Source of the DNA: Cohnella kolymensis
GTDB taxonomy: Bacteria > Bacillota > Bacilli > Paenibacillales > Paenibacillaceae
Length of the DNA: 64,000 nt
NCBI RefSeq assembly: GCF_000829465.1
Contig: NZ_JXAL01000001.1
Coordinates: forward strand, 62,001 to 126,000
Direction of reading: 5' to 3'
The translations under genes were made by a program, and so were the position numbers. How positions within the stretch are numbered: the first letter of the stretch is position 1; every line of letters begins with the position of its first letter. The notes beneath the pieces were generated by a model, which was given only the letters and a program-made list of their open reading frames with translations, ran no database searches and had not been told where the DNA came from. Below, one piece after another: positions 13,914-63,615 of the stretch.

Positions 13914-13998
13914 CTTGCCTCTAACCTCCTAACCGACCTCTCTTTCTCTCTATTATTGCCAAACTGCGTTTTGGTAGTCAGAGGACCACAACCCACTC

Positions 13999-14375
13999 CG
14001 CCCCTTTTTGAGCATTCCTGAGTGAAATGCATATACCTGCTCTCCACCCCTTTTTGAGTACACCTGAGTGAAGTGCATATATCTGCTCTACCCTTCTTCT
14101 TGAGTGCACCTGAGTGAACTGCCTACAACCGCTACACCCCTTTCCAGAGGTCCTGAGTGAAATGCATATATGTAGTTCATTCAGGTAGGTAAATAAGGGG
14201 TATATGAAGCTCAGGCATGCAGGTAAGTGAGCGGTATGTGTAGTTCACTCAGACAGGTAAGTGAGCGGAATATGTAGTTCACTCAGACAAGTAAATAAGG
14301 GGTATATGTAGTTCACTCAGACAGGTAAAAAAGCGGTACATGAAGCTCAAGCATGCAGGTCAATAAGCGGTGTAA
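13999..14375. repeat. Head-to-head repeat arrays with CTGAGTGA core, field 1
   Basis: This non-coding field between the PBP and chemotaxis genes holds two arrays facing each other. The left array has four units of about 43-46 bp with CCTGAGTGA at 14017, 14063, 14109 and 14152, each preceded by a CCCCTTTTTGAG-like stretch and mostly followed by TGCATATA. The right array has about six units of 33-35 bp in reverse orientation (GTAGTTCACTCAG, then a GTAAGTGAGCGG-like stretch) at roughly 14176, 14210, 14243, 14278, 14312 and 14345. The halves can fold on each other as a large imperfect palindrome. No open frame of note is present. Confidence 0.8.
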
Positions 14376-28420: not shown

Positions 28421-29635
<1,215 letters not shown>

Positions 29636-29687
29636 CGGTCATTAAGCCGCATTCGTTGTCGAGAACTAAGCCGCAATTTCTTGGACT

Positions 29688-29720
29688 AAGCCGCAACCCA
29701 TCTCGGGCTTGCGGCTTTTT
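29688..29720 (+). terminator. mnmA terminator with repeated 5' arm
   Basis: AAGCCGCAA (29688-29696) pairs with TTGCGGCTT (29709-29717), then T5. Two more copies of TAAGCCGCA lie upstream (about 29643 and 29667), which could pair with the same 3' arm. Confidence 0.85.
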
Positions 29721-29748
29721 CCTATTCACTCGATCCCAGACGCCACCT

Positions 29749-29820
29749 CCATTTCCCTTTCCATTTACCTTTCCATTTACCTCTCCATTTACCTCTCCAT
29801 TTCCCTGTCCAAATCCCTTA
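29749..29820 (+). repeat. 12-bp tandem repeat, six units
   Basis: Six consecutive 12-bp units of the form CCATTTACCTCT cover exactly 72 bp, the outer ones diverged. No gene is affected. It lies between the mnmA terminator and the second CTGAGT repeat field. Confidence 0.9.
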
Positions 29821-29884
29821 CAATATCCTCCGCTATTTTCCCATTCCTGCTAAACCGAACATACCCATCAATATCCTCGTTTCA

Positions 29885-30420
29885 CCGCTCCTGAGTGAAG
29901 TACACATACCAGATATATCCTTGTTTTCCGCCACCTGAGTAAAGTGAAAGTGCACATATCCGTCTTTTTTCCGCTCCTGAGTATATCCTCGTTCTCCCGC
30001 CACCTTGAGTAAAGTACACATACCCATCAAATATCCCTCGTTTTTCCTCACTCCTGAGTAAAGTTGCACATATCCGTCTTTTTTCCGCTCCTGAGTAAAC
30101 TGCACATACCCCCACAATATCCGTCTTTTTTCCGCTCCTGAGTAAACTGCACATACCCCACAATATCCGTCTTTTTTTCGCTCCTGAGTAAAGTGCAGAT
30201 TATGGTGCAGCTTTGGCCATCTCCATGAAACTCTATATTTGAGCAGCGTTTGGAAATCTCAGTGCCCCTTTTCCGTTATAGGACTTATGGCATATATGTA
30301 GATCACTCAGGTCGGTGGAAAAGGGGTTATACACGTGGAATTATAGATCACTCAGATGGGCGGAAAAGGGGTTATACACGTAGATTAATAGATCATTCAC
30401 ATGGGGTGAAAAGGAGTTAA
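29885..30420. repeat. Head-to-head repeat arrays with CTGAGT core, field 2
   Basis: The left array has eight units with CTGAGT or CTTGAGT starting at about 29891, 29934, 29976, 30004, 30053, 30090, 30137 and 30183, spaced 28-49 bp. A typical unit is TCCTGAGTAAACTGCACATA followed by a CCCCACAATATCCG-like part and CTTTTTTCCGC. The right array has three units 45 bp apart in reverse orientation (GATCACTCAG at 30301 and 30346, GATCATTCAC at 30391), each followed by GGAAAAGGGGTTA-like text. They share core and C-rich/T-rich flank with the field at 14.0-14.4 kb. Confidence 0.8.
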
Positions 30421-30484
30421 TTACGTGGACGTTACCCGGTAATTGCCCGGCAGCCCATCTCTTCGACTAAATACAACTAACTAC

Positions 30485-30538
30485 TTGAAAGAAGAACATA
30501 TGTTTGGTAAAATTGTGATTAATAGGAACAGACGTTCG
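30485..30538 (+). promoter_or_regulatory. Sigma-A promoter with two LexA/SOS-type boxes
   Basis: TTGAAA (30485-30490) and TAAAAT (30508-30513) are 17 bp apart, an ideal sigma-A layout. AGAACATATGTTTG (30493-30506) fills the spacer and GGAACAGACGTTCG (30525-30538) lies just past the start site. Both fit the Bacillus LexA pattern GAAC-N4-GTTY, and their centres are 32 bp apart, about three helical turns. This predicts LexA repression and DNA-damage induction of the gene at 30558. Confidence 0.65.
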
Positions 30539-30557
30539 TAAAAAAGGGGCGGTTGTT

Positions 30558-31152
30558 ATGTTGTCGATACGGCGGTTTATGGAGCTTTTTCCGGATGATG
30601 AGTCATGCCGACAGTATATATACAAGGTGCGCTGGCCGCATGGTTTCATTTGCCCTAAGTGTACGGAAAACAAATACACGCTTATTCGGTCGCGTAATCT
30701 CTATGAATGTTCTTTTTGCAAGGCGCAAACATCCGTTACCGCTGGTACTGTTATGCATCGGACAAAGCTGCCGCTGAGCTATTGGCTGTTCACCTTTTAC
30801 TGGATTGCCTCGGGTGAACGCTGTTCCGCACGTAAACTCTCCATTACTCTAAACCTCAACTATCGTACGGCTCTGCGAATGCTTCATGCTGTCAGATCAG
30901 CGATGAGCGCAGCGAATGGAAACTACATGTTCGCATTTTGGAAACCGGCGCGCTTCAGCATGGTGAGAAGAGCTAACCGGATGATGCGAAAGCGGGCACA
31001 TCAGTTTATTTATTCCTACTATCGCCGCGTCGCCCCCAAAAAATCTACATAGTTATTTCAGTGAGTTTTGGTTTCGCAGCGACAATGAAAGGGATCGAAC
31101 ACAAGCACTTGAAAAATTGATTACCGCCGGTACTGCGTCTAATTGGGCATAA
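30558..31152 (+). CDS. IS1595-like transposase-derived protein lacking the DDE core, frameshifted
   Basis: The N-terminal part is a clear IS1595 zinc-ribbon (FMELFPDDESCRQYIYKVRW, CPKCTENKY, CSFCKAQTS, then VTAGTVMHRTKLPLSYW) followed by the helix-turn-helix (LSITLNLNYRTALRMLHAVR). The DDE catalytic domain that should follow is absent. The sequence goes directly to the family C-terminus, RRVAPK, then NLHSYFSEFWFR. These last parts are in different frames, joined by removing one A from A6 at 31038-31043, giving about 197 residues ending at TAA 31152. It cannot catalyse transposition as seen. It may be a degenerate IS or a DNA-binding protein derived from one. An SOS-type promoter precedes it; no inverted terminal repeats were found. 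Confidence 0.75.
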
Positions 31153-31172
31153 AAAAGAGGCCTGCAGGCCTC
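31151..31172 (-). terminator. Terminator of the YebC-family gene
   Basis: The perfect palindrome GAGGCCTGCAGGCCTC (31157-31172) is followed on the minus strand by T6. Confidence 0.9.
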
Positions 31173-31222
31173 CTCCTTTGATTAGAAAAGAATAGCAAAA
31201 CCACGAAAAGCAGAGTGACCGG

Positions 31223-31965
31223 TTAACCCAGCCGTTCGGCTTCTTCATCACTGATCTCGAAATTGTGATACACGTCCTGCACATCGTCATTATCGTCGAA
31301 GGCATCCATCATTTTGAGCAGCTTTTCGGCGTTTTCGCCTTCAGCGGCCACTGTGTTTTGCGGAAGCCAGCGAATGCCTGCGGTCTCGAATTGATATCCG
31401 GCGGCTTCCAGCGCCGTTTTGACGGTCTCGAAGTCGCTCGGTGCCGTCAGCACTTCAAAGCTGTCCACATTGACGACCACATCTTCCGCTCCAGCTTCCA
31501 ACGCATGCATCAGCACCGCATCTTCATCCGGCTGCCCGTGCTCACGAGGAATAACAAACAAGCCTTTTTCATCGAACATATAAGCGACACAGCCCGATTC
31601 ACCCATATTGCCGCCCCGTTTACCGAAAATGGCGCGCACATCCGCCGCTGTACGGTTGCGGTTATCGGTGAGGCATTTCACCATGATGGCGACCCCGCCC
31701 GGTCCATATCCTTCATAAATAATTTCTTCATATTCCACGCTGTCGCTCCGCCGGCTGCTTTCTTGATCGCTCTTTCAATATTGTCATTCGGCATCTGAAT
31801 AGCCCGCGCGCTGGCGATGGCGGTCTTAAGTCCGTAATTCGCTTCCGGATTCGTGCCGCCTCTTCGCGCCTGTACATATATTTCACGAGCAAGCTTCACG
31901 AATTGATTGTTTTTGGCTTGATCGGCTTTGCCTTTACGATCGGCAAACAGCTTAAATTTTGGCAT
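31223..31965 (-). CDS. yebC: YebC/PmpR (TACO1) family protein, frameshifted
   Basis: About 247 residues when joined. The N-terminal part (KGKADQAKNNQFVKLAREIYVQAR, MPNDNIERAIKKAAGG) and the C-terminal part (YEEIIYEGYGPGGVAIMV, LTDNRNRTAADVRAIF, GESGCVAYMFDEKG) are in different frames. They meet near 31739-31740: one added base gives GGATAVEYEEI. Family members act as translation factors that relieve stalling or as DNA-binding regulators. The first residues (MPKFKLFADRK) differ from the common HSKWANIKHRK form, so a second local error near the start is possible. It converges on the transposase-like gene. Confidence 0.88.
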
Positions 31966-32057
31966 TACGACGTACCCCCGTTTAAAACGTTATTACCCAT
32001 TAGGTCGACAACAGTTTACCACTTCGGCATCCGAATGGTCAAAGGCGGACAAATGTC

Positions 32058-32084
32058 AAAGCCCCCGGCTGCGGCCAGGGGCTT
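32058..32084 (-). terminator. Terminator of the cold shock gene
   Basis: AAGCCCCTGGCC and GGCCGGGGGCTT-type arms around GCA form a strong GC stem on the minus strand. The T tail is short (TTTGAC), so efficiency is uncertain. Confidence 0.6.
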
Positions 32085-32133
32085 CGTTCGTTTACGGTCG
32101 TGTTATGAAGATAAGTCTTCGCGTATGCGAGAC

Positions 32134-32331
32134 TTACAGTTTCACCACGTTGGATGCTTGAGGACCACGGTTGCCTTCAGTGATGTCGAACTCAACCGCT
32201 TGGCCTTCTTCCAAAGTTTTGAAGCCGTCGCCTTGGATTGCAGAGAAGTGAACGAATACATCGTTGCCGTCCTCTACGGAGATAAAACCATAACCTTTTT
32301 CTGCGTTAAACCACTTAACTGTTCCTCTCAA
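32134..32331 (-). CDS. cspB: Cold shock protein, CspA/CspB family
   Basis: 65 residues, standard size. RNA-binding motifs RNP1 (KGYGFI) and RNP2 (VFVHF) are present, with [16 protein letters not shown] at the start and [10 protein letters not shown] at the end. It binds single-stranded RNA and melts secondary structure. Translation starts at TTG 32331 with AGGAGG nine bases upstream. It has its own promoter with a short leader. Confidence 0.96.
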
Positions 32332-32377
32332 ATGAACAACCTCCTAAAATCTCGCCGTTAATCGGCGAATGAGGTAA

Positions 32378-32406
32378 TTATAACCGAATTGACCTAAAGT
32401 TGCAAT
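32378..32406 (-). promoter_or_regulatory. Sigma-A promoter of the cold shock gene
   Basis: Minus strand TTGCAA (32406-32401), 17 bp spacer, perfect TATAAT (32383-32378). The leader would be about 40 nt, containing a small CGCCG/CGGCG hairpin (32354-32368) just before the Shine-Dalgarno. That is shorter than the long cold-shock leaders of enterobacteria. Confidence 0.8.
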
Positions 32407-32495
32407 ATGTTCAGCCCCTGTGAAAATTGCAAATAAACCAGTCACAGCAAGGAAATTCGGTCCCGGCAAGCCGAAAAATCGGCAGGCAGAATTTA

Positions 32496-32620
32496 CTATC
32501 GAATCAGCCTGAAAATCTCATTTTCTTGAAACAAAACGGCATAGACTTCTAGTTGAGGTTTACGGCGCAGCGCCTGAATGATTCCGGGTCGTTCAGCGGC
32601 ACGTTGATTTCTCCGCCCAT
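32496..32620 (-). CDS. Possible small protein, frameshifted
   Basis: Two frames join into protein-like text: GGEINVPLNDP in one and GIIQALRRKPQLEVYAVLFQ plus ENEIFRLIR in the other, meeting near 32584-32588 where one added base would fuse them. GTG 32602 has GGAG eight bases upstream; ATG 32620 is an alternative. I recognise no family, and the sequence could be an accident of frame. The remainder of this roughly 340-bp gap holds only the csp promoter. Confidence 0.3.
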
Positions 32621-63601: not shown

Positions 63602-63615
63602 CGAACTTATGTTCT
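63602..63615 (-). promoter_or_regulatory. Candidate LexA/SOS box in the small WYL gene promoter
   Basis: AGAACATAAGTTCG on the minus strand (GAAC-N4-GTTC perfect) lies directly upstream of the TATAAT at 63601-63596, inside the -10/-35 spacer. The -35 is weak (GTTATA at 17 bp). Confidence 0.5.

Follow-up and report, generated by a model that had tools for sequence, protein, structure and literature searches.

Core-less relatives of IS1595 transposases with LexA-type boxes in their promoters, and the repeats that adjoin them in Cohnella

Introduction

Why would a gene that keeps the zinc ribbon of an IS1595 transposase, and has lost its catalytic core, stand behind a promoter with two LexA-like boxes? 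The question is raised by a locus between mnmA and yebC in a 64,000-nucleotide stretch of the Cohnella kolymensis genome, which we refer to as the window; its order is taken here to be Paenibacillales and its class Bacilli. An earlier note on this DNA had proposed that the gene is not a dead insertion sequence and that it encodes a DNA-binding protein recruited to the DNA-damage response. We examined the gene and its promoter, its relatives in other genomes, the promoters of the wider IS1595 lineage, the loss of the catalytic residues, and the repeats found beside these genes and away from them.

Results

The gene of the window and its promoter

The zinc ribbon (Pfam Zn_ribbon_IS1595, PF12760) is recognised in residues 12-57 of the window protein with 54.6 bits, above the cut-off of 25.4, and is its sole match above cut-off; the DDE domain (PF12762) is absent by Pfam, and on a short-family protein the NCBIfam model NF033547 scores 35.6, under its cut-off of 75. 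We also assume a helix-turn-helix region in the window protein, helices being predicted in its relative L039. The earlier statement that the zinc ribbon was kept and the core lost is borne out, whereas the C-terminal tail that the same note placed in the gene is found in another frame (Table 1). Since the 18 aligned relatives read through this tail in frame, the allele in the window is a shortened one. The gene that follows, yebC (31223-31965, minus strand), is likewise divided between two frames, both pieces being named yebC, so that a sequence error is possible in the stretch that holds the short gene. The frame changes in the two genes suggest that this stretch either contains indel errors or is genuinely decaying, and the window allele may be impaired or mis-sequenced. 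A cspA thermoregulator RNA (Rfam RF01766, 81 bits) is located at 32055-32535 on the minus strand.

The TTGAAA-17-TAAAAT promoter described previously is present at 30485-30513 and is the sole sigma-70-like site obtained from a scan of 30400-31300; shuffled sequences yield 1.1 ± 1.1 such sites, so that chance could account for the hexamers taken alone. The two LexA-like boxes are also as described, one in the spacer and the other downstream at 32 bp from centre to centre, and they match 8 and 9 of the 10 fixed positions, respectively, of CGAACNNNNGTTCG, which we took as the LexA-box consensus for scoring. Single boxes are frequent in the 64 kb (51 matches with at most 2 mismatches vs 37 expected), and two boxes in one upstream segment were found in 1 of 1400 letter-shuffled segments; relatives of the gene conserve both boxes in kind. 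The operator overlapping the promoter of the window gene matches the motif at the lexA and recA genes of the host: lexA (TIGR00498, E 8.6e-75) has four sites of the same motif, and recA has one box of the form seen at the window gene. Elsewhere in the window, the LexA-like sites CGAATATATGTTCG and CGAACTTATGTTCT (857-870 and 63602-63615) have one mismatch each to the consensus.

Table 1. Positions of the features discussed, numbered from the first nucleotide of the window.
Feature	Position	Strand	Basis
Second array pair, core CCTGAGTnAAnTGCACATACC, forward then reverse	13996-14371	.	Repeat search
Tandem array, core CCTGAGTnAAnTGCACATACC, forward copies at 29890, 30004, 30090, 30137, 30183	29871-30197	+	Repeat search
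Tandem array, 45-bp units, core reversed; exact 19-mer at 30293-30311, minus strand	30299-30419	-	Repeat search
-35 hexamer TTGAAA	30485-30490	+	Promoter scan and sequence reading
Spacer, 17 nt	30491-30507	+	Sequence reading
LexA box 1, AGAACATATGTTTG, within the spacer	30493-30506	+	Motif scan
-10 hexamer TAAAAT	30508-30513	+	Promoter scan and sequence reading
LexA box 2, GGAACAGACGTTCG, downstream of the promoter	30525-30538	+	Motif scan
Short-family gene, 164 aa (ATG 30558, stop 31050-31052)	30558-31052	+	ORF and Pfam
Conserved C-terminal tail of the family, with stop, in a frame different from the ORF	31042-31152	+	Alignment and frame reading

A family of short proteins under purifying selection

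Among 197 genomes, including that of the window, 18 other genes align with the window protein along almost its entire length, at 47-61% identity. Together with the window protein they make up a short family of 19, carried by Cohnella and a few Paenibacillus, whose lengths, except for that of the window protein, range from 201 to 233 aa. The DDE domain is missing in 18 of the 19 and gives a marginal match (E 0.0038) in the remaining one, and a LexA box precedes all 19 genes; orthologues with the same internal deletion and the same boxes, a test set beforehand, do therefore exist.

The place between mnmA and yebC is common to the window gene and to L038, L042, and L045 (from C. silvisoli, C. luojiensis, and C. 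endophytica), and a degraded remnant of the gene (residues 2-38) occupies it in genome G025. The other short genes are found at other chromosomal places, some of them common to several genomes. At one place in Paenibacillus, L053, L055, and L056 have both flanks in common and L054 the right flank only; the orthologue-like proteins encoded there have 201, 211, and 319 aa (L053, L055, L056) and 271 aa (L054), with a middle that varies by more than 100 residues between two conserved ends.

Estimates of dN/dS (Nei-Gojobori) are 0.05-0.12 in 7 of 12 short-family pairs, which overlap in members and have some dS values above 1; the other five pairs are saturated, including both that contain the window gene itself. 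The relatives in the short family are thus under purifying selection. The AlphaFold2 model of L039 (pLDDT 85.5) shows the strands of the zinc ribbon, helices, and a helical region at the C-terminus, and that of a triad-less full-size paralogue (pLDDT 86.5) retains strands in its middle. Fold searches against the PDB gave best E values of 0.016 and 0.74, the latter being the best Foldseek match of the short model, so that the case for the proposed DNA binding is built on the family of the zinc ribbon and on the predicted helices.

LexA-type boxes across the IS1595 lineage

The boxes are not peculiar to the short family. In the order of the window, 64 of 70 IS1595-like genes have a box upstream and 39 have at least two, as compared with 7 of 66 segments downstream of the genes, 1 of 70 inside them, and 51 of 1400 shuffled segments, a control that rules out chance as the origin of the boxes; the 70 come from 73 rows, L006, L057, and L081 being left out as their upstream DNA is absent. 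Boxes precede all 13 triad-intact genes, 9 of which belong to genome G166 (two more intact copies, outside the 13, have no upstream DNA), 49 of 57 other triad-less genes, which are degenerate, variant in length or fragmentary, and the one partial gene. The eight boxless genes include L019 and L023, which together form the sister group of the short family in the tree, and L006, whose upstream sequence is only about 100 bp long. In the genome of the window itself, six of the seven IS1595-like genes have boxes, and the seventh, located where a contig ends, has about 100 bp of upstream DNA.

Outside this order, a box was found in 3 of 47 relatives (5 of 54 in a wider count), which rules out the box as a feature of IS1595 everywhere; the count by class covers 142 of 149 rows with at least 85 aligned N-terminal residues. 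Other types of LexA box were represented before 54 outgroup genes by one E. coli-type and one alphaproteobacterial-type match. In other families of the class Bacilli, the box is present in 15 of 16 readable loci from 13 genomes, two of the matches being weak; this sample draws on 22 of 30 loci, of which 5 have no readable zinc ribbon and L243, from the family of the window, was kept out of the 16.

In this lineage, the promoters of the transposase genes contain a LexA-type box between -35 and -10, and many have another box about 25-32 bp farther along. Among genes with boxes, this arrangement, with at least 8 of the 12 hexamer letters, is found in 17 of 19 short genes, 34 of 46 other triad-less genes, 12 of 13 intact genes, and the one partial gene, as the best of several offsets and scored on the real sequences without shuffles. 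In G166, two copies of 1018-1019 bp that are 98% identical have inverted ends of 15 bp, are flanked by target duplications of 8 bp, and hold the box-in-spacer promoter inside those ends. We rejected the idea that a dead copy recruited the promoter, since triad-intact copies have the same one, and the part of the earlier proposal that spoke of recruitment to the DNA-damage response is not supported. The intact copies and the boxes in other families of Bacilli make it probable that the gene owes its SOS promoter to inheritance from the insertion sequence.

Loss of the catalytic triad and multiplied copies

On the tree of N-terminal regions, three clades consist of triad-less genes and have 39 rows, 25 rows (including the short family), and 7 rows, each with SH-aLRT support of 99-100; the tree, built by a quick method from 123 columns, is unrooted and leaves 56 of 138 inner branches open. 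These well-supported clades suggest that catalysis was lost at least three times, and the triad-less clades mostly keep their boxes. Of 54 further or repeated loci, none has all three catalytic residues, and eight keep the first two.

Several genomes hold multiple copies with SOS-type promoters and no canonical catalytic triad (L301-L314 in C. silvisoli, G031; L315-L318 in G054; L319-L320 in G020). The 14 copies fetched from C. silvisoli keep the first aspartate, vary in the second residue, and have lost the third; six of them, compared pairwise, are 90-94% identical over blocks of 1.3-1.6 kb, and no clean target duplications were read for these copies in the portion inspected. The four copies of G054 are 92-96% identical, and the two of G020, both at contig ends, share 97% over 642 bp. 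In the 14 genomes that bear short genes, no near-full-length match above 42% identity to the intact L061 protein was found, short pieces reaching at most 51%, and a plasmid search with the intact protein gave a best identity of 44% among the matches listed (40 of 115 records).

Repeats beside the genes and away from them

Many IS1595-like genes adjoin tandem arrays with a common core. In the window, the core has 12 loose matches (at most 4 mismatches) as compared with none in the reversed control; the arrays near the short gene are on one side of it, and the search of 29500-31300 reported no inverted arms flanking the gene. None of the seven IS1595-like genes found in the genome adjoins the second array pair. 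Palindromes of the core are frequent beside short genes, that of L039 being perfect with 23-bp arms. A separate 12-bp tandem repeat, TCCATTTACCTT, is present in 5.3 copies at 29748-29811 of the window, downstream of mnmA.

The short genes of Cohnella adjoin inverted repeats with the pattern CCTGAGYNANNTRCANAYA. In most of these genomes such repeats are scattered elsewhere as well, and in four genomes they form inverted pairs 35 bp from start to start. The pattern was searched in 40 genomes, G024 (78% complete) having been left out of the 37 of Cohnella, and the reversed control gave 3 matches. It is present in all 11 Cohnella genomes with a short gene (95 matches, 1-33 per genome), in 2 of the 25 without one (one match each), and in none of 4 genomes from outside Cohnella, three of which, from Paenibacillus (G039, G054, G069), carry short genes. 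One of the two exceptions is G025, which the count scores as lacking the gene despite the remnant between mnmA and yebC. Twenty-four of the 95 exact matches, in 10 of the 11 genomes, are within 1.2 kb of a short gene, and in G028 the exact pattern was not found near the gene; these near-gene counts are partly circular, as the pattern itself was derived from arrays beside short genes.

When distal matches alone are considered, the pattern is present in 8 of 11 vs 2 of 25 genomes (Fisher 2e-4, kinship ignored). A test of independent pairs on the mnmA tree, which holds 35 of the 36 Cohnella genomes (G034, with no match, was left out), is not significant with only about 2-3 independent gene changes; the gene changes only three times on this tree, which leaves the test of association without power. 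The highest counts are those of G006 (33) and G023 (23), and at 20 loci fetched from these two genomes, in unannotated stretches of 0.6-1.5 kb, 14 have no match inside an open frame of at least 100 codons and 6 have at least one.

Within 1.5 kb downstream of mnmA in 35 genomes, the exact motif is found in G000, G029, and G031, all of which have the gene there. In G032 (L421), a repeat pair lies between mnmA and yebC and the short gene is about 25 kb away; the motif is absent from this region in the other 31 of the 35, including the gene-bearing G028. In the genome of the window, the full-size triad-less genes have different flanking repeats, as judged by eye; one core among these, GGGGATANYGNNNATAAG, has 9 exact matches (control 1), 4 beside two full-size triad-less genes and 5 elsewhere.

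Discussion

The selection seen in the relatives and the common chromosomal place speak for a protein with a function and against a dead insertion sequence, in agreement with that part of the earlier proposal. The window gene most likely encodes a LexA-repressed protein with a zinc ribbon and a helix-turn-helix that would act on REP-like repeats, and we hold it rather probable that it belongs to a domesticated, nuclease-less family derived from an IS1595 transposase and placed under SOS control. LexA would repress the short gene, and DNA damage, through RecA and the cleavage of LexA, would release it; the zinc ribbon and the helix-turn-helix would then bind the CCTGAG-type repeats, the C-terminal helices perhaps serving for dimerisation. 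At REP-like sites, a protein without a nuclease could act as a repressor or as an architectural or bridging factor, or else it might provide the DNA recognition for a movement machinery that obtains its nuclease from another source. The effect of binding is the least certain element of this reading; we favour a regulatory or architectural role, with mobilisation in trans as the bolder alternative.

If the gene were instead a decaying, functionless IS1595 copy with a fossil promoter, its missing catalytic core, the tail out of frame in the window copy, and the remnant at the same place in G025 would be readily understood. We nevertheless regard this as very unlikely, given that the low dN/dS of seven pairs of relatives (with five more saturated) is not what relaxed selection leaves, that the tail is open in 18 relatives, that the synteny with mnmA and yebC is held in common, and that all 19 genes have boxes. 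It could also be supposed that the core-less protein inhibits sibling transposases by competing for their ends or by forming mixed multimers, as the promoter type common to short and triad-intact genes implies co-induction in the SOS response and their N-terminal DNA-binding halves are alike. We regard this, too, as very unlikely, given that the 14 genomes with short genes lack a near-full-length match to the intact protein above the identity given, that no locus of the 54 has the whole triad, and that the repeats adjacent to the genes are unlike the ends of the intact element by eye.

A further reading is that the gene lost its triad and is still spreading, moving with its flanking repeats as a unit by means of a nuclease supplied in trans or of an unrecognised catalytic site. 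Triad-less or non-canonical copies have indeed multiplied in G031, G054, and G020, and short genes occupy several chromosomal places, mostly with adjoining repeats; however, clean target duplications were not read for the G031 copies in the portion inspected, and the multiplied cases are full-size genes and not members of the short family, which makes this reading unlikely for the window gene. Returning to the domesticated, SOS-controlled family that we prefer, we tentatively suggest, as a possibility that we would not yet count on, a wider REP-like system, served by a nuclease-less transposase descendant and switched on by DNA damage, in which an SOS-controlled IS1595 lineage of Bacilli would have produced triad-less proteins at least three times. 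At least two of the resulting groups would have repeats of their own, both next to the genes and scattered, and some genes without the triad would still be multiplying with no DDE site that can be recognised.

The nearest known counterpart is the system of REP or REPIN sequences with RAYT (TnpA-REP) proteins, already described (PMC2817692, PMC3116915, PMC8266576). In both, a gene derived from a transposase adjoins palindromic repeats of which further copies are scattered through the genome, here in Cohnella only. However, RAYTs are tyrosine (Y1/HuH) nucleases, whereas the short proteins have the IS1595 zinc ribbon as their sole domain above cut-off, no recognised nuclease, and no Y1/HuH domain by Pfam; the copies with the exact pattern are also few here in comparison with REP/RAYT, at 1-33 per gene-bearing Cohnella genome. 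To our knowledge, descriptions of RAYTs do not include an SOS promoter.

Insertion sequences under SOS regulation are likewise known, with a LexA box overlapping the transposase promoter (ISCR1/2/8, IS10, Tn5/IS50 debated; PMC13393415, PMC4265352), and this overlap is what they have in common with the genes studied here. The boxes of the ISCR elements follow the pattern CTGT-N8-ACAG, whereas those studied here are of the Firmicutes type, often two, and they span an IS1595 lineage and persist after the loss of the catalytic triad. With the IS1595 family of transposases (PF12760/PF12762, NF033547) the short proteins share the zinc ribbon and the N-terminal half, and they differ in that 18 of 19 have no DDE domain. 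With the LexA regulon of Firmicutes (lexA, recA, yneA) the common element is the operator motif in the same genome; we know of no IS1595 gene that belongs to that regulon. Judged by titles and abstract openings, no report of LexA control of IS1595 was found among the papers listed, the papers naming both IS1595 and LexA having other subjects, and nothing was found on Cohnella, palindromic repeats, and transposase together; SOS-controlled transposases and RAYT/REP systems are themselves known.

If LexA control of this IS1595 lineage is real, DNA damage would release an insertion sequence family across much of the class Bacilli, which would offer a path, open to direct testing, by which DNA-damaging stress could rearrange genomes. 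If the core-less proteins act on the dispersed repeats, they would form a counterpart of RAYT/REP that has no nuclease and is linked to DNA damage; if true, this would bear on why cells keep tamed transposases and their repeats.

Apart from the IS1595-like genes, pairs of LexA-type boxes precede small ORFs at two other loci of the same genome, L227 (904-944) and L118 (447-484). These ORFs, of 76 and 66-69 aa, respectively, have no NCBIfam match and are possible unknown SOS genes. At L227, a gene for an ABC-type ATPase is divergent from the small ORF.
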